Positions 14,401-54,191 of a stretch of DNA of 64,000 nucleotides are shown here, in pieces. The stretch lies in NCBI RefSeq assembly GCF_000003815.2, contig NC_049984.1, positions 17,830,751-17,894,750 of the forward strand, read 5' to 3'. This DNA is from Branchiostoma floridae. Taxonomy: Eukaryota; Chordata; Leptocardii; Amphioxiformes; Branchiostomatidae. The notes under the pieces are model-generated. The model was not told the origin of the DNA and did no database searches. It worked only from the letters and a program-made list of their open reading frames with translations. Each line of letters starts with the position of its first letter. Position 1 is the stretch's first letter. The position numbers and the translations under genes are program-made.

Positions 14401-14594
14401 TACTGTAAATGCAGAAACGTTTGCAGTGGTTTTATGCTCGCAGTTTTGGTGAGGCAGTCTTACCGTGAACTTAAAACCACCGCGAACACTTTTCCTTTAC
14501 AGTATGTGACTACAGTGTATAGCACTACCGCGAGCACTCCACTTTCCTGTTTACACGAAATTAAATCCCCATTAACTTAAATGCATTTACAGTA
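14401..14594 (+). mobile_element. MITE, family A copy 2, abutting the sulfotransferase exon
   Basis: An intact 194-bp copy: it starts TACTGTAAATGCAG and ends TGCATTTACAGTA at 14594, with GTGGTTTTA and TGAACTTAAAACCACC segments inside. The open frame of the sulfotransferase starts exactly at its right end, so the AG in ATTTACAG (14591-14592), or the next AG (14594-14595), is the only close splice acceptor. Confidence 0.85.
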
Positions 14595-15149
14595 GACGTT
14601 CACCTTTCAAATATGTTAATTATGAGAACAGCTCCACACGGGATCGTCAGTCCAAAGGGGAACACAAAGATTATCTCCATCATGCGGAACCCAAAGGATA
14701 TTGCCATCTCATATTACCACTTCGCAACAAGGCTCAACTTCAACAAGAATGACTGGGAAACGTTCGCTGGCGACTTTCTCAACGGGCGATGGCAATATGG
14801 CGATTTGTACCACCACGTGCTCGGCTGGTGGCAGATGCGTGACGACCCCCACTTTCTCTTCCTGAAGTATGAAGACATGAAGAAGGACAATAAAGGAGCT
14901 GTGGAGAAAGTCGCTGCTTTCCTTGAGGCAGATCTAGAAGAAGACCAAGTGGCAAGCATTACGGAGGCCTGTACCTTTCGCAACATGAAAGCCGTTTACG
15001 ATAAAACAACTGACATCAGGTGTGTTATCACGAGGAAGGGCGTCGTTGGAGACTGGAAATCGATGTTCACTGATGAACAAAACGTGGCATTTGATGCAAA
15101 GTATAAAGAGAAGTTAGATGGAACTGGACTTGATTTTGACTTTGATTGA
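14593..15149 (+). CDS. Cytosolic sulfotransferase (SULT1-like), C-terminal part
   Basis: It would transfer sulfate from PAPS to small phenols, amines or steroids in the cytosol (family function). An unbroken frame of 178 codons from an internal ATG at 14613 holds the 3'-phosphate-binding segment (RNPKDIAISYYHF), FLKYEDMK, and the diagnostic RKGVVGDWKSMF near the C-terminus. Upstream in frame, VHLSN aligns with the family's KTHLP, so the catalytic His would be encoded just 5' of 14613. SULTs are about 290 residues. The first roughly 100, including the TYPKSGTTW loop, are not found between here and CDT1. It is therefore either the last exon of a gene with missed 5' exons, or a truncated copy. 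AATAAA lies at 15228-15233. The exon start is inferred; 14593 and 14596 are both possible. Confidence 0.8.
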
Positions 15150-43269: not shown

Positions 43270-44099
43270 CAGCGTGGAACTCCGGAACTTAAGAGAAACG
43301 AGTCTCTTAAGTGTGGGATGAAGGCTGTAACGTAATATTTCTAGCATAATTGTTATGTCTTGTTCGTGACACATGTTATGCGGAAAATTTTAAACGGGGA
43401 TAGATCAATAATAGTATGGGGTGGGGCAACGTTGATATATCAATCATTGATAACCATGAATGGAATTCTTTTCTTTTTTTTTTTTGAATGAGGAAAAGGG
43501 AGTGGATTTCAATTGCCTTTGTTAGACAAACGCTAAGTCGATGATTTTTGCATTAAGATAAAACGTTATCGTTATGGGAGATCTATAGATCGTTAGCCAA
43601 GACCTTTCTTCAAGTTGGTAAATTCAGTTGCAAGGTTTGGTGTTATCGACAAGACAAGAGCGCCACCTATGTAGACACAGTATAGTCATCTGAACTCAAG
43701 AACTGTCTGAAATAAAGTTGAACCTCGTGTTAAATAGATTCAACAATCTTTTTAATCCTTGGATATTGCTAATTTCTTCCACCATGTTTTGAAAAACTTA
43801 GAGCAACAGCTAGCATAGAATATCCTTCTTACACTGCATATGATTTACATAATCATACTATGCTCATCTATTCATTTTGTATTTTATTATTCATGTTATG
43901 TCACCGACATGCAGTCGATCTGGCCAAGGATCTGGCGAAGTCATCTTGGAAATGTGTGTCAACAGACCCCACGTGCCTGAAGCAACCACATGTGTAGGAC
44001 CGGTTTTTTTTACGGAAGACGCGTGAGACCACGTGACTCTATTTTTAGCCCTTTGATGCACAGATTTGTCCTAGATTTACCGCGAGTGGTCATTTTATC
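43270..44099. other. Intergenic; no gene seen
   Basis: Nothing beyond short chance frames. A GATCTATAGATC palindrome occurs near 43580. Confidence 0.5.
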
Positions 44100-44309
44100 T
44101 ACTCTCCAAGCAGAGGTTAGGCTCCGGCTGTTTTTTTGCGTTTTTTTAGTCGTTTTNNNNNNNNNNNNNNNNNNNNNNNNNNNNNNNNNNNNNNNNNNNN
44201 NNNNNNNNNNNNNNNNNNNNNNNNNNNNNNNNNNNNNNNNNNNNNNNNNNNNNNNNACGACAAAAAAACGTTAAAAAACAGCCGGAGCCTAACCTCTGCT
44301 TGGAGAGTA
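44100..44309. mobile_element. Foldback MITE, family E, with assembly gap inside
   Basis: TACTCTCCAAGCAGAGGTTA, then GGCTCCGGCTG and T-runs, at 44100-44156 is the reverse complement of 44257-44309. The 100 N between (44157-44256) probably replace the hairpin loop. The AAGCAGAGGTT motif recurs in degenerate form near 20255. Confidence 0.8.
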
Positions 44310-44743
44310 CATTTTATCACCAAGGACACCTTAAACAGAGGCTTTAGTTTAGATCTTGCTTTGGTTTGGGCTCACAATCAGCCCTGATCAACGTACCGAC
44401 AGAGGGTGGTACGTACTACGATGTCGTCGCAAGTTGACAGTGTTTGTGTTTGTGATCTTTTTTTTCTTCTCGATAATAAAAGTAGCCAAGTTCGTCATAG
44501 TCAGAGATCACTTTCACCAGCCAGATACCTCTTGACTTCAGTTTTGATGTGAACTTTTATTCTACTATCTAGAACAAAAGAAAGCATGTTTTACTGATTC
44601 TTTTTAGATCTATTGCATTGAGAATTTAATGGCGCTGTCAACTTCAATTCAATTAGATCTTCTATCAGTTCTAAAGTATAATATAAACAGAGCATGCGGC
44701 ATGCCTTTGGAGTACTACTACTAGCGCATATAACACTGCCCAT

Positions 44744-44898
44744 TATATAAGCATAGAGCACAGTGTAGGGTATTTCTGGATGGACCAAAATACCTTGGGG
44801 GTCACTTCGTGCGTAAGTGGCCAGAGTTCAGGTATGGCTGCTATGCTCAGCCGGTCAGGGTGGGAGGGACGTGAGAGTTGCATTTGCGGATTTATCAT
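44744..44898 (+). promoter_or_regulatory. TATA promoter and noncoding first exon of the phosphatase gene
   Basis: TATATAAG at 44744-44751 precedes GAGCACAGTGTAGGG. A consensus donor (TTATCAT then GTAAGTG) ends a putative noncoding exon at 44898. The next good acceptor (CCATACAG, ending 45512) precedes the coding exon. Copy B has the same TATA box (46741-46748) and donor (after 46878). Confidence 0.55.
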
Positions 44899-45534
44899 GT
44901 AAGTGCTATTCGTGTTCACGACTAGATATCAATCTTTGATACATGTAGTATGAAGTTCAAGTTTAAGCTGTTGGCTTTTGTGTGAGTAGCTTTGCTTCTG
45001 ACATTCGTATTGACATTTGCTTTATCTATAGTTATCTCCAAAGCATTGCAATCATGTGGTTGGATTGTTTGGTGGGTCTTTTGTGGTATTTTCTGCGTTT
45101 CTACACACCTCTCTATAGTGATGTGATGTACTTTTTTTCCTGTTTCACGCGAATCACAAGAAAAGAACGTAAATACAGAAAACACCACAAAGGACCCACA
45201 AAATATGTCCGTCTGATGCACCTGCTTAGGGTTTATATCTGTGACAGTTAGTAGTGGTAGCCATGGTCTTAATGTATACAGGAGGTATGGCCATTGTAGG
45301 TTCGGCCTTCAACATTGAAGTTGCTGTTACCCAATAGACACTGTATACCATCACTTTCGTTACCGTGTGTTTCCACCAATCAAGAAACAAAGAGAAAGTG
45401 TGTGATTTGTTTGCCAAACAACTGCAATGGCTGCAAGTGTCATTACAGTTGTCATGTTTTACACAAGCATATGTTGAACGCTGTTCTCTGTTCCTCTTCC
45501 TTCTCTCCATACAGATGACGGTTGCCGAAGAGAC

Positions 45535-46050
45535 ATGGCGTATTACCGGGTCAACGACCACCTATACTTCAGCAACGCAGTCTCGGCTCGAGATCTAGAC
45601 AAACTTTTGTACCTCAAGATAACCTGCATCATTAACGCCACCCAACGACAACAAAGCGCACAGCACCCATCCATCGATTTCCATCGTATCTCTGTGGCCG
45701 ATTCCCCTCAGGAAGACATCCTCAAGCACTTGGACAGGGCTACAAATATAATCCACGAGACGGCGAGGAAAAACGGGCGGACCTTGGTACACTGCAAGTC
45801 CGGCGTGAGTCGTGCGGCGACCATTTGTATCGCTTACGTCATGAAGTATCAGAACTTGTCATTGCGAGAGGCTCATGACGTGGTGCGCAAAGCACGCTGG
45901 GCGATCCGGCCAAACGACGGTTTCTGGGAGCAGCTCTTGACGTATGAAAAGCGTCTGAGACACACAAACAGCGTAGAGTTCATCACCATACGGTCTCTGA
46001 GACTACCTAGTGTCTATCGACAGGAGTATAGCAATATGAACCAATTGTAA
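45535..46050 (+). CDS. Atypical dual-specificity phosphatase (DUSP14/18-like)
   Basis: Atypical DUSPs dephosphorylate phospho-Tyr and phospho-Ser/Thr, often on MAP-kinase pathway proteins. One coding exon of 171 residues holds the whole catalytic domain: YRVNDHLYFSN start, the general-acid Asp56 (VADSP), the signature HCKSGVSR (86-93) with Cys87 and Arg93, and AYVMKYQNLSLREAHDVVR. IRPNDGFWEQLL follows. The tail VYRQEY resembles the DUSP14/18 C-terminus. No kinase-interaction domain is present. The ATG lies 22 bp after a splice acceptor at 45512; the alternative upstream ATG there is in another frame. AATAAA at 46233-46238. The locus is followed by a duplicate that lacks this exon. Confidence 0.93.
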   Translation: MAYYRVNDHLYFSNAVSARDLDKLLYLKITCIINATQRQQSAQHPSIDFHRISVADSPQEDILKHLDRATNIIHETARKNGRTLVHCKSGVSRAATICIAYVMKYQNLSLREAHDVVRKARWAIRPNDGFWEQLLTYEKRLRHTNSVEFITIRSLRLPSVYRQEYSNMNQL

Positions 46051-46409
46051 CGCTTTGTGCGGAATGAGATGAATATTGTGTATTTTTCTTTTTCGTCACA
46101 AATTACAGAAATATAAAGTTGGTCTCAAATGAGTTGTAACGTAATAAGGATCTACATGTATTTCTATTGTCGGATATTGGCGTCTACAAAAATAAGTTAC
46201 ACCTGTATCTATGTAAAGTTATCATAGCTTCCAATAAATTTTGATAGAAGAATTAATATTGTCCGCCTCTGATACCTTCCTTCCCTTGGTACTGATGAGG
46301 GTACTTGGTATTTGTCCTAAATTTATGAGGCGTCGCCAAGGCCACCGTAGCCAGAGATTTTAGAGCTTGCTTGAGTTTGAACGCCAGAAGTTGGTATGTG
46401 ATGTTACAT

Positions 46410-47545
46410 ATCTTGGCGTCGTCACAAGTTGTCAATTTAAACGGTACTGTGAGGAATTGTTTTTTTGGATCATAAAAGTAGCCATGTGCGGCATACTAGC
46501 CAGATATCACTTTCGCCAGTCGAATACCCAGTGACTTGTCATACTTGATATGAACTTTCATTCTCTTATCCAGAACAAAAGAAAACTGTCTATTTTACCT
46601 GATTTTTCTCTAATGTATTGGAAATCCAAAGGCGCCGTCAACTTCCATTCAATTTGATATTTTTGTACGTAAAGTATAATAAACAGAGCATCCGAAATGC
46701 CTTTAATTGGAGTACTAGTGCTGAATATAACACTGCCCATTATATAAGCATAGAGCACAGTGTAGGGTATTTCTGGATGGACCAAAATACCTTTAAGTGG
46801 CCAGAGTTCAGGTATGGCTGCTATGCTCAGCCGGTCAGGGTGGGAGGGGCGCGAGAGGTGCATTTGCGGATTCATCATGTAAGTGTTATTCGTGTTCACG
46901 ACTAGATATTAGAGTAAGGGCCAATCTTTTATAGTATTAAGTTCAAGTTTAAACTGTTGACTGTCATTTGAATATTGACTTTGTGTAACGTTGCTTTGTA
47001 TCTACTTCGCACTGGCCTTCGCTTTATCTATAGTAATCTGCAAGCAGATGTATCGGTTCGGTTGTTTTGTGGGTCTTTCGTGGCCCTATCTGCGTTTTTA
47101 CATATATTTCCATAGTGATGAAAAATAAACGTAAAGACAGAAAACACCACAAAAGACATAAAAAATAAGTCCAACAGTTACTAGTGGTAGCCGTTTTTTT
47201 TAATATTCGGGTAAAATATTACAACATGTATACAAGAAGTAAGGCCATCATAGGTTCGACCTTCAACATGGAAGTTGCTGTTGCCCGATAGATATACCAT
47301 TATGTTTGTTACGGTGTGTTTTTTCGCACACTACAACAAAGAAACAAAAAAGATCCCTAGAATGTGTGCGACTTGTTAGCCAACAACTGCAATGGCTTCA
47401 ATTGTCATTAAAGTTACACAAGTGTGTGTTGTCCTTTACGTTATAAGTTATACCTGTACCTACGTAAAGTTATTGTAGCTTCCAATAAATAGTGATAGAA
47501 GAATTCTCCGCTTCTGATACCTTGCTTTCCTTGGTACTGAAACGC
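46410..47545 (+). pseudogene. Tandem copy B of the phosphatase locus, coding exon absent
   Basis: It repeats copy A's promoter (TATATAAG at 46741), exon 1 donor and intron up to CACAAGTGTGTGTTG (about 47430). It then continues at the 3' UTR (ATAAGTTATACCTGTACC, TTCCAATAAATA, TGATACC..TTGGTACTGA). That equals copy A joined from about 45476 to about 46188, a loss of roughly 710 bp covering acceptor, whole coding exon and the first part of the 3' UTR. Alternatively the exon was gained in copy A. It may still be transcribed as a short noncoding RNA, since promoter, donor and a polyadenylation signal are kept. Confidence 0.75.
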
Positions 47546-47842
47546 CTTCACAGTAAGAATGACAACAATGATTCGAACTTACGATGTTTACGATAGTTAA
47601 CGTTAATGGTGAAGATTTTTGCATTTTCTGGCCATGATAAGTTGAAGCTAGCCTAATCTTATAGAATATCTCAATTTTCGTCACAATTGGTCCTCGTGAA
47701 GTGGACTATTGAAGTCAGTTTCTGTTATGTCTTCCTTACATTTTACTTACCACTATACTCTTGGCACCTTTTGGGAGAGGGTATAATCAGTCAATTTGAC
47801 ATCGCTATCAGTCAGTTATGCCACTGCTGTTAGGTTCCCGAG
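47546..47842. other. No feature seen
   Basis: Spacer between the phosphatase duplication and the inverted-arm element. Confidence 0.5.
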
Positions 47843-48129
47843 AATAGAGTTAATTCCAGTTGTGGCGGCCATGTTGGATTTCTGGGGTCATCCGGGGTCA
47901 TGGCACCAGAACGAGACTGCAGGTGGTACCAGCTGGGCATTCTACTATATAGGCTGTATTGCAGACATAAGTATGCCATCTTCGGGAATGCATTTCACCC
48001 CTCTAAGATTAACAACTGCACAATATATGCCTGTTATCTATAGAAAATATTGTTTGGGACATTTGAACTTGATTTTGGTGATGTTTTTTATTAATTTTTC
48101 ACATTTTTTCTATGGGTGACCTGAGAACA
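47843..48129 (+). repeat. Left arm of a 287-bp inverted repeat pair
   Basis: From AATAGAGTTAATTCCAGTTG to GGGTGACCTGAGAACA. It is the reverse complement of 50343-50628 with roughly nine differences, mostly in a T-rich stretch. Both arms can be translated into a similar peptide, but there is no independent sign of coding. Confidence 0.9.
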
Positions 48130-48681
48130 ATTAATGTCAGTGTTTATATCCTCCATGTGCGCTGTGTATCGGTAACTGTTATTAAACCCTACAAAAACAT
48201 GAAAATATCGGACTGACAGATCTGTTCATAAAACTACGTACATGTATTACTAAGTTCTATCACCAATTTACCTCTTCCACTGACGATAAAATTTACGTTT
48301 TTCTCAACATTGGCATTGAAAAATCCCTAACAGAAAAAAAGCTGCTACATTTCATCCCACAATTTTATGGACCCAACACGTGGACTTTTTGTGTAGGGTT
48401 ATGTTGTGTAAACTAGAATAAAACAATGAAAACATGAATTGGGAAGAAAGTAGAGGAGCACACCCGGCATGACATTCCCATAGAGCGTAGTTTGCAGAAC
48501 GGATCTTGGCATCAATAAATCATCAGAACAACTGCCAAATGTCTTTTGAATTTCTACCCGCAAAGATGTCATCCCCATATTTTGCGTATTTGTAGGGTTT
48601 AACCCCAATAGTAAACCTACTATATCACAGTTACCAGTACAAAGCACTAATGGATGATATAAACACTGACACTAATTGTTA
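48129..48681. mobile_element. Nested foldback element
   Basis: CAATTAATGTCAGTGTTTAT at about 48128 and its complement (ATAAACACTGACACTAATTG at about 48659) are terminal inverted repeats. CGGTAACTGT..AACCCTACAAA and TTTGTAGGGTTT..ACAGTTACC pair further inside. No ORF. Confidence 0.7.
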
Positions 48682-48971
48682 TATGACTGGTTTATTTCGA
48701 AAACAAACTGACAGTAACATAGCAGCCACAAGGCTGAATTACGACATGTCATTACATCAATCATTAAAGTAGTTAAAATCGAATATCATGAATCATTACA
48801 ATAGTACAGCTCTTAAAAATCGTTGCAGACGAATTAAATCAGTATCGGGATAAAGCATATAAATTAGTATTTGCAGTAATATCAGCATATCCCTTTATCG
48901 GAAGGTAAACAAATATTTAAAATACACAATGACTTACTATTTGATACAAAGCACAAACATACAGGTTACAA

Positions 48972-50360
48972 TTACTTGTTCAAAAGACGGACCATGAAGG
49001 GTACAGCGCTGTTGCGATAGCGTTCAGTTCTACAGCGAGTAGTGTTCAGTTTGTGGGATGACCTTGTCTGTCTACCACTGATCTCACCTCTGGCTGGTGG
49101 CAGTAAGTGCAAGAAATGATCGGACTGACTGAGAGAGTTAGCAAAGTGTGTGATCAGTTCAAGACGTCGTGCTTGTAGCGAAGGTAGACCCAAGTCAGAA
49201 CAGGCATCAGTGTAAGACGTGTATCTCTGTCCCAGTATTATGCGCACAGCTCTCCGTTGGACCTTCTCGATCCTGTCACTAAGTGCAGTGGTGAGCCCGG
49301 AGTGCCAGACAGGGGCACAATACTCCAGGACTGGTCGGATGTAAGTCACATACACTGTGACTAGGTCGCCGATGGACACGTTAAAGTGTTTCAGATCACG
49401 GAGGAGGTAAAGGCGTCGGCTAGATTTGTTACAAATGTTGTCAACGTGAGAGTTCCAACGTAGGTCAGCCTGCAGAAACACGCCCAGGATCCTCATCACT
49501 GGCACCTGTTGTAGCTCAGTGTTGTCGATCATGAGAGATGGTGTTGGGTACGGGACCTTCCTGAAATGGATGTACATAACTTGACATTTCTTGGGATGCA
49601 ACTTCATATGGCTGGTGCGAGACCAGTGGTCCAGGTCGTTCAAGTCCTGTTGCATATGAGACATACTTAGGTTGGGGGTTCTTATTTCCAAGAGATTCAG
49701 GTCGTCAACGAATTTCCAGCGTTTGGAGGCAGCCTGATGTGCGGCGCTGTTGATATACGCAAGGAAAATCAACGGCCCGAGTAGAGTGCCCTGGGGTAAT
49801 CCGCAGGTAACCTTCAAGCTGTCGGAAAGTGTTCCATGGTAGCGTACAACCTGGCTCCTGTTTGAGAGGAAGTCTACGATCCATCTTGTCACAGAGGGGC
49901 GCAGGCCAAGATCAAGCAGACGTTGGATAGCGAGGTTGTGACACACACGGTCGAACGCCTTGCTATAATCGGTTGACACAAGAGAACACAGGACGCCGGG
50001 TTTGTCGGTGGCTTTGAAAACCTCGTTGGTCAGATCTAGGAGGCAATGTGTTGTCGATTTGCCCTTGAGGCAGCCGTACTGTTGAACATCGATTTGAGGA
50101 ACGATGTCGGTCAGCACCCACCGCGAGACAAGGCGTTCGGCGACTTTCGCTAACAAGGATGTAAGGGAGATTGGACGGAGTTCAGTTAACAACGGGGGTT
50201 TGGTCTTAGGAATTGGAACAATAACCGCACATTTCCATTCATCCGGCACTAAGCCTTGTTGGAGGGAGCTATTGAGAATGTCGGTAAAGGGCTCGCTCAG
50301 TTCACACGCAAACTCCTTGATTATTTTACCTGGGATGCCATCTGTTCTCAGGTCACCCAT
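48972..50360 (-). mobile_element. Non-LTR retrotransposon reverse transcriptase, 5'-truncated
   Basis: A continuous 462-codon frame. From residue 6 it reads TDGIPGKIIKEFACELSEP, then PIPKTKPPLLTELRPISLTS, motif A (STDYSKAFDRV), motif B (GLPQGTLLGPL) and motif C with FVDD (usually Y/F-A-D-D). The thumb region has HPKKCQVMYI and a C-terminus LEYCAPVWHSGLT..RIEKVQRRAVRIIL. The endonuclease domain is absent. The first five codons (MGDLR) come from the adjoining arm sequence, so the junction near 50343 is the truncation point. The family (Jockey/CR1/Rex-like) is not resolved. The 3' UTR runs to about 48682, with AATAAA on the minus strand near there. Confidence 0.92.
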
Positions 50361-50628
50361 AAAAAAATGTGAAAAATTGATTTAAAAAATCACCAAAATC
50401 AAATTCAAATGTCCCAAACAATATTTTCTATAGATAACAGGCATATATTGTGCAGTTGTTAATCTTAGAGGGGTGAAATGCACTCCCGAAGATGGCATAC
50501 TTATGTCTGCAATACAGCCTATATAGTAGAATGCCCAGCTGGTACCACCTGCAGTCTCGTTCTGGTGCCATGACCCCGGATGACCCCGGAAATCCAACAT
50601 GGCCGCCACAACTGGAATTAACTCTATT
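50343..50628 (-). repeat. Right arm of the inverted repeat pair
   Basis: See the left arm (47843-48129). It borders the 5' truncation point of the reverse transcriptase frame. No target duplication is obvious outside either arm. Confidence 0.9.
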
Positions 50629-53011: not shown

Positions 53012-54191
53012 GACAGAGACAGAGGCGCAGAGAGAGAAGGAGACGGAAAGCAAGTGACAGAGAGACAGAGACAGAGAGACAGAGTCAGAGAGAGACGCAG
53101 AGGGAGAAGGAGACAGAGAGAGGGGGAGAGAAAGGGAGGGAGGGAGGGAGAGGTTGCGCTAACAATATCATTTTTCTCTTTTGTTTCTCCTCCAGAGATT
53201 TGTATGGACCAACAACCTGACCATCATGCTACCACAGAACCCCGACACGTCCGTTCTGAGACGTCCGGATCTGACGTATGTAAAACCGCCATTCTACCCT
53301 CCATATGACGTCATGCTGCATCACTTACGCTACAACAGGCCCCAGATGTCAAACCTCATGCAGAAGAATGCGGTTTTCCTCGCCATCTTACGTTACCCTC
53401 TCAGTCACCTAAAATCTTCCATCAACTATTTTCACGTGGACAAACGTCTCGGATTACGAAAGGAAAACCCTCTGGAAGATTTTCTGAGCGACCCCAAGTA
53501 TTTTCTCGGCACGATGGCGCTAAAAACAAGGAACTGGCAGGCTTTCATGATGGGCATATCTCCATGGTACTCTGGGAACAAGAAGATGGCGCAAGCTCGT
53601 ATCCAAGAACTTGGGACAGAGTTTGATCACGTGATGATTTTGGAGTATTACGACGAATCGTTGGTGTTGCTGAAAATAAAACTATGTTGGAATCTTCAAG
53701 ACATCTTATACGACAGACAAGTCCGGAATTATCGTTCTTATTCCTACAAGAACGCAGAAATACCGGAGAAGCTTCAAGAAAACCATTACCGCTCAAGCGA
53801 CCTGGACTACAGATTGTACGACTTCTTCAACAAAACTCTCTGGCGGGAAATCGCAGAAGGCGGAGACGATTTTCGGAACGAAGTAGAGTTATTCAAACGA
53901 GTGAACTATGAAGTAAATCTCTACTGCAATAGCTCTGCAAATGAGAGTAGTTATGTTGTGCAAGGGACGATATGGAACGAAGAGTTCACGGTTGACCAGA
54001 AGTTGTGTTCTGAGCTAAAAATGAGCAGGACAGACTGGGATAGGCGCTTTTTCAAAAGGCAGGGGAAGGTACCACAGCGAAGGACAAAGGGCACCAACAT
54101 CAGTTTTATCAAGGATTTTGTAAAGCGTGCAGGTGTAGCTCACCGAAGGAGAGGTCCTCAAATGGGCCCGGTGAATGTTATAAAGGTTTAA
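51257..54191 (+). CDS. Galactose-3-O-sulfotransferase-like type II membrane enzyme
   Basis: Gal3ST enzymes transfer sulfate from PAPS to galactose O-3 on glycolipids or glycoproteins in the Golgi. Three exons join in phase: 51257-51411, 52504-52711, 53196-54191 (452 residues from the first ATG; the next ATG is two codons on). A signal-anchor at residues 8-25 (WAVFVLLGCLVVFSFLF) follows a short basic N-terminus. The 5'-phosphosulfate loop is FVFIKVHKAGSHNTACILQ (103-121), then RFVWTNNLTIMLPQN. The 3'-phosphate segment is ILRYPLSHLKSSINYF (from about 185). LRYNRPQM and DHVMILEYYDESLVLL are further family landmarks. Several N-glycosylation sequons are present (NIT, NVT, NLT, NKT). AATAAA at 54606-54611. 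Intron 2 holds a large purine repeat. Substrate unknown. Confidence 0.9.
52815..53150 (+). repeat. GACA/GAGA purine-rich microsatellite in Gal3ST intron 2
   Basis: About 335 bp of interrupted GAGA, GACA and GGGA units on the plus strand, ending about 45 bp before the exon 3 acceptor (53195). It keeps one forward frame open, giving a spurious Arg/Glu/Asp-rich translation. Confidence 0.95.

Follow-up and report, generated by a model that had tools for sequence, protein, structure and literature searches.

The window, a stretch of 64,000 nt at positions 17830751-17894750 of its contig, carries an intact phosphatase gene (copy A) followed in tandem by a duplicate without the coding exon (copy B), both on the plus strand (Table 1). 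From the sequence, copy A is predicted to comprise a TATA box, an exon 1 that runs to the donor at 44899, an intron and a single coding exon, whose predicted acceptor (AG at 45513-45514) was rated good. The Pfam search detected a DSPc domain (PF00782, E 7.6e-36) in the product. Its HCKSGVSR satisfies HCX5R, the defining motif of this phosphatase class, and, along with the DSPc domain, this indicates that copy A is, as read from its translation, an atypical dual-specificity phosphatase (DUSP) gene. The top PDB match was DUSP21 (E 1.2e-34, 123 bits), with DUSP18 and DUSP14 next; the DSPc domain and the C-terminal part of these proteins align with the copy A product.

Searching the genome (513 Mb, 431 contigs) with the A protein, we obtained 15 matches at E <= 0.001 among 19 scored candidates. 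The best-scoring match after A itself, L004 on another contig, gave 38% over residues 5-168 (164 residues). The remaining 13 were weaker (31-55% over shorter stretches), and none lay in B. At full identity, this search matched A alone. L004, by score the nearest paralogue, has one open coding stretch (L004:1477-1998) with 183 bits to DUSP14. As copy A reaches 123 bits to its best match, DUSP21, it stands further off from DUSP14 than L004 and is a divergent DUSP member. Sequence inspection found no clear acceptor immediately 5′ of the L004 ATG; L004 thus gives no guide to the polarity and does not prove the layout of intron plus coding exon to be ancestral.

Copy B follows copy A in collinear order: the upstream region, TATA box, exon 1, donor and intron, and then the end of the 3′-UTR with its AATAAA. 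BLAST inside the window aligned 44461-45450 with 46457-47415 (71%, E 1e-153) and 46192-46295 with 47443-47540 (84%, E 4e-26). Pairwise alignment of A and B showed continuous homology on either side of a single gap. These results agree with the sequence-only reading, in which B repeats the TATA box, exon 1 donor and intron and then passes to the 3′ end. The homology seems to reach beyond the 5′ limits of that reading, to the starts given in Table 1, as judged from a 16-nt match and a gapped alignment, both weak; in A it is broken by the 210-bp inverted-repeat element. Outside a near-identical block described below, the copies agree in 704 of 968 columns of the MAFFT alignment, a divergence of about 27%. 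A looser pairwise alignment gave 277/349 upstream and 377/448 in the intron; these identities are higher because that alignment inserts more gaps.

Table 1. Features of the two copies and their surroundings, in window coordinates.
Feature	Position	Strand	Basis
Copy A, intact phosphatase gene	44064..46297 (5′ limit approximate)	+	pairwise alignments
Inverted-repeat (MITE-like) element, 210 bp, A only, 100 N inside	44100..44309	.	sequence
Near-identical block in A, with TATA box, exon 1 and donor plus the first 30 nt of the intron	44728..44929	+	alignment with B
TATA box TATATAAG, copy A	44744..44751	+	sequence; function inferred
17 nt in A alone; its end makes an extra donor-like TGC/GTAAGT in exon 1	44797..44813	+	alignments
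22-codon uORF in exon 1 of A	44834..44902	+	sequence; A/B comparison
Intron in the 5′-UTR of A, from GTAAGT to a pyrimidine tract and ACAG	44899..45514	+	predicted splice sites
Segment of A absent from B, outer bounds	45451..46191	+	breakpoint alignments
Phosphatase CDS, 171 aa, with HCKSGVSR	45535..46050	+	Pfam DSPc, PDB matches
AATAAA of copy A	46233..46238	+	alignment with B
Copy B, duplicate without coding exon	46310..47541 (5′ limit approximate)	+	alignments
Near-identical block in B	46725..46909	+	alignment; sole other genome place found is A
TATA box TATATAAG, copy B	46741..46748	+	alignment; function inferred
22-codon ORF in B, one residue off A	46814..46882	+	sequence; A/B comparison
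Donor GTAAGT, intact in B but lacking the acceptor that it pairs with in A	46879..46884	+	sequence
Deletion junction in B, ambiguous interval	47416..47443	+	alignments
AATAAA of copy B, homologous to 46233	47484..47489	+	alignment with A

We find no coding exon or remnant of one in B, as tblastn of the window with the CDS product returned nothing else with an E below 0.16. The parent protein is no longer encoded by B, while promoter, exon 1 and intron remain collinear with those of the parent, as in an unprocessed pseudogene. On these sequence features, we class copy B as a duplicated pseudogene with an internal deletion; its promoter looks intact, and it may still be transcribed. The earlier description of a promoter-bearing locus with no protein, a 'ghost gene', fits the sequence. 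As B lacks the entire CDS, it shares little with the A mRNA beyond exon 1 and the 3′ end. Outside the near-identical block, the B sequence fits evolution without constraint.

The 12 best joint alignments listed place the A breakpoints at 45450-45459 and 46164-46177, with 713-726 nt missing; other A/B alignments permit outer limits of 45476 and 46192. B has thereby lost the acceptor and all of the CDS, along with 38-64 nt on the intron side and 113-141 nt on the 3′-UTR side. The junction in B was thus well anticipated by the sequence-only reading, which had put it near 47430. Its statement that B lost exactly the coding exon stands insofar as acceptor, CDS and proximal UTR are gone; 'exactly' is wrong, since the cut runs from within the intron to a point within the 3′-UTR. 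The A-only segment has no second copy within the window beyond 15-nt words.

Presence in A and absence from B carry no direction by themselves, and B is continuous across the site. An alternative proposed earlier is that the coding exon was inserted into a pre-existing noncoding unit in A, with B as the original state, and the absence of a clear acceptor just before the L004 ATG fits it. However, a retroposed or inserted exon should show a target duplication or poly(A) at its edges. The longest word shared by the flanks of the A-only segment was 6 nt, equalled in 970 of 2000 shuffles, and its right edge has only a run of five A. The end of the 3′-UTR with AATAAA is common to both copies, and under insertion it would have to have been present before there was any coding exon. 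Insertion into A is therefore unsupported. It would also require a piece carrying an intron end, an acceptor, the CDS and some 3′-UTR to have landed correctly, and we consider it very unlikely. Loss from B is the simple reading, because the donor and poly(A) signal of B are best understood if an exon once separated them. By parsimony, then, deletion from B appears likelier than insertion into A, and the deletion account draws support from the genome search, in which no near copy of the CDS was found elsewhere.

The near-identical block begins 16 nt 5′ of the TATA box and spans exon 1. Its identity is 180/185 columns (97%) vs the 704/968 elsewhere (Fisher p 6e-17). The best 180-column window held 175 matches, a value that none of 5000 column shuffles reached (maximum 172), and two aligners concur on the block. 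The best-fit edges lie at 44728-44738 on the left and 44858-44944 on the right. Leaving out the 17-nt indel, mismatches number 0/124 columns at 44728-44868, then 5/38, then 0/23, and the indel sits mid-way in the mismatch-free run. Judging by sequence, B appears to have retained the ancestral promoter in that run, with no mismatch but the one 17-nt indel. Beyond the stop of the upstream ORF (uORF), 26 of 27 bases are identical, into the intron.

Searching the genome at E 0.001, we found the block in A and B only; the search skips very common words, so that absence elsewhere is unproven. This assembly contains the duplication, the missing segment and the block, the latter at two genome places. 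With only these two places found, we rejected the block as a dispersed repeat. A small RNA gene was rejected as well: in the window, Rfam gave 0 matches at the gathering threshold, the tRNA scan gave 0 matches, and the folds were near shuffled means (exon 1, z 0.46 in A and -0.39 in B; exon-1 and block folds, z 0.46 to -1.43). The longer of the antisense ORFs over the block (46558-46878) had no family match in Pfam. A 22-nt pattern from the block gave 0 matches in viral contigs, an uninformative result. A literature search by title and abstract start found no paper about this locus, which does not exclude that one exists.

The uORF peptide, MAAMLSRSGWEGRE(S/R)CICGFIM, has an unbroken frame in A as in B, and the two share a start context, GGT ATG G, which is a good one. 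The uORFs of A and B differ at four nucleotides, all at third codon positions; three differences are synonymous and one changes Ser to Arg. Third positions thus differ at 4/23 (17%), which is the rate outside the best tract (148/858), and first and second positions at 0/46 (Fisher p 0.010, a comparison of two sequences in which the pattern was seen first and tested afterwards). We then placed five substitutions at random within the right-hand 116 nt of the block (n=20000) and counted ORFs of at least 20 codons that were intact in both copies with at least four differences, all at third positions. Only 34 runs gave this pattern, and 202/20000 did so with at least three differences, again a post hoc test with few differences. 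In a simple simulation, the neutral chance of the uORF staying intact was 1.0-1.4%.

As a control, we surveyed both strands of A 44325-45475 for ATG-to-stop stretches of at least 12 codons, which gave 27 when nested starts were treated as separate. Four of them align gap-free in B, and three are intact, namely the uORF, its nested start and an intron ORF of 21 codons (45272-45337). The intron ORF carries nine differences at codon positions 1, 1, 2, 3, 1, 1, 3, 1 and 2, and hence shows no third-position bias. As this control ORF also survives, ORF survival alone is not rare.

With the predicted splicing of A, the last uORF codon would be split, and a TGA at 45516-45518 would end the uORF 16 nt before the phosphatase ATG. 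The 17-nt indel sets the first ATG of A (44780) in the uORF frame, giving 40 codons. In B, an ATG at 46777, earlier than the uORF, opens an overlapping frame of 42 codons. Performing Pfam searches, we rejected these 40- and 42-codon frames as known proteins (only sub-threshold matches, E 0.12 and 0.2). That exon 1 codes in frame with the phosphatase was also rejected, as no ATG lies past the last in-frame stop with either donor. The uORF peptides of both copies had no Pfam match, that of A had no PDB match, and a genome search with the A peptide, run to E 10, hit two places, those of A and B.

Two inverted repeats lie in the duplicated region. The element at 44100-44309 has arms of about 50-60 nt, measured as 61 nt with 89% complementarity, and is flanked by a 9-bp target duplication, CATTTTATC, at 44091-44099 and 44310-44318. 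In the gapped alignment, the corresponding position of B lacks the element. The 9-bp duplication and the absence from B are what a true insertion that postdates the gene duplication would leave. The N gap inside the element may reflect hairpin trouble in assembly. The other inverted repeat lies in the intron of both copies (A 45060-45215, B 47055-47170), with a strong fold in A (z -6.5) and a weak one in B (z -1.6). Of its 60 pairs in A, 32 are kept in B, 8 are broken, 20 are unaligned and 0 are changed on both sides, and the ungapped repeat finder gave no inverted pair of at least 15 nt at 45060-45215. With the weak fold in B and no two-sided pair changes, we rejected a conserved hairpin RNA; the repeat is probably an older, decayed inverted-repeat element that predates the duplication.

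The neighbourhood carries further features. Downstream of B, on the minus strand, 48972-50381 holds a reverse transcriptase ORF (RVT_1, E 2e-24, 469 codons stop to stop) that looks like part of a retrotransposon. The stretch 50343-50628 is an inverted copy of 47843-48129, just downstream of B (97% over 287 nt), and the pair lies on opposite sides of the reverse transcriptase ORF. Coding stretches with a galactose-3-O-sulfotransferase domain (PF06990) and a sulfotransferase domain (PF00685) were seen at 53163-54191 and 14565-15149, respectively.

From these observations we infer the following order of events. An ancestral phosphatase gene with a TATA promoter, an untranslated exon 1, one intron and one coding exon underwent tandem duplication. 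Later, a single deletion of about 0.72 kb would have stripped B of its acceptor, its entire CDS and some of its 3′-UTR. What remained was a promoter, exon 1, an orphan donor and a poly(A) signal. Were B transcribed, an unspliced RNA of about 0.7 kb would be expected, starting at about 46772, some 30 nt past the B TATA box, ending just past 47484 and encoding no phosphatase. Most likely, the block was kept alike because the two copies, which lie about 2 kb from each other, underwent gene conversion fairly recently. We hold duplication, deletion in B and then conversion of the block to be the best explanation, with a probability of roughly one half. Conversion would explain the length and edges of the block, the indel within an identical run and the identity beyond the uORF; the indel in the mismatch-free run and the identity into the intron fit a copied tract better than base-by-base constraint. 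Conversion does not predict the third-position pattern of the uORF, nor that the tract starts 16 nt before the TATA box and covers exon 1.

Those last features are what a tentative second explanation accounts for, which we rate as possible. In it, B also arose by deletion, but the block is under purifying selection and B is a live unit whose product is the 22-aa uORF peptide or an exon-1 RNA; the uORF would throttle phosphatase translation in A and act without a main ORF in B. The match of the block to TATA box and exon 1, the bias to third positions, the shared start context and the low neutral chance of intactness all favour selection, as does the control intron ORF, whose differences, unlike those of the uORF, are spread over all codon positions. 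A precedent is JPX, which keeps the translated uORF of the lost USPL gene (PMC5577775). However, the bias comes from a post hoc test on only four differences, of which one alters a residue, the control intron ORF survives as well, the identity extends beyond the uORF to the leader and the intron start, and the overlapping frame in B opens at an earlier ATG. The peptide searches and the exon-1 RNA folds likewise gave nothing unusual. A stricter form, in which subtraction turned B into a microprotein gene in its own right, its main ORF deleted and its promoter and uORF selected, with the uORF no longer a translational brake, seems doubtful to us. Conversion and selection could both be at work, and two sequences cannot separate them.

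B could be an inert relic in which the high identity of the block arises by chance or alignment; the rest of B does decay freely, the intron inverted repeat included, but the shuffles and the agreement of the two aligners make this exceedingly improbable. An assembly artefact, with collapsed or mis-joined haplotypes giving B or its missing exon, is also hard to credit, since A and B lie on one contig, no N occurs in 44257-49200 and a divergence of about 27% far exceeds allelic differences. On its side are the 100 N at 44157-44256, which mark imperfect assembly nearby, and the high heterozygosity described for lancelet genomes (PMC12373286).

The kind of locus is already known. Duplicated (unprocessed) pseudogenes with an internal deletion likewise retain, in a tandem copy, intron and promoter without the CDS; B differs in that its promoter and exon 1 are almost the same as those of the parent, against a divergence of about 27% elsewhere. 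Loss of coding potential is a described source of lncRNA (PMC5577775; PMC5644071). The nearest parallel to B is JPX, which derives from USPL and, like B, lost the main ORF and kept the promoter and the first exon with its uORF (PMC5577775). The first exon of JPX is reported to show promoter activity and to contain an ORF that is translated and can be aligned with the uORF of USPL and USP12 (PMC5577775). JPX derives from the lost USPL gene itself, whereas the coding parent of B adjoins it, and the JPX peptide is described as not conserved among mammals (PMC5577775), whereas the A and B peptides differ at 1 of 22 residues. The lincRNAs described from pseudogenised or duplicated coding genes resemble B in that coding capacity is lost and a coding relative exists (PMC5644071). 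Those lincRNAs are annotated (PMC5644071), whereas B is a putative transcription unit predicted from sequence.

The notable part would be a uORF that outlives its main ORF. If B is transcribed and its uORF translated, the A/B exon pair, with and without the enzyme, would be a natural experiment on the uORF peptide, asking whether it has a job of its own or merely controls the main ORF. If conversion is true, the locus would show how a gene and its pseudogene can have their promoters homogenised, and would be a caution against taking the conservation of a pseudogene promoter as function.
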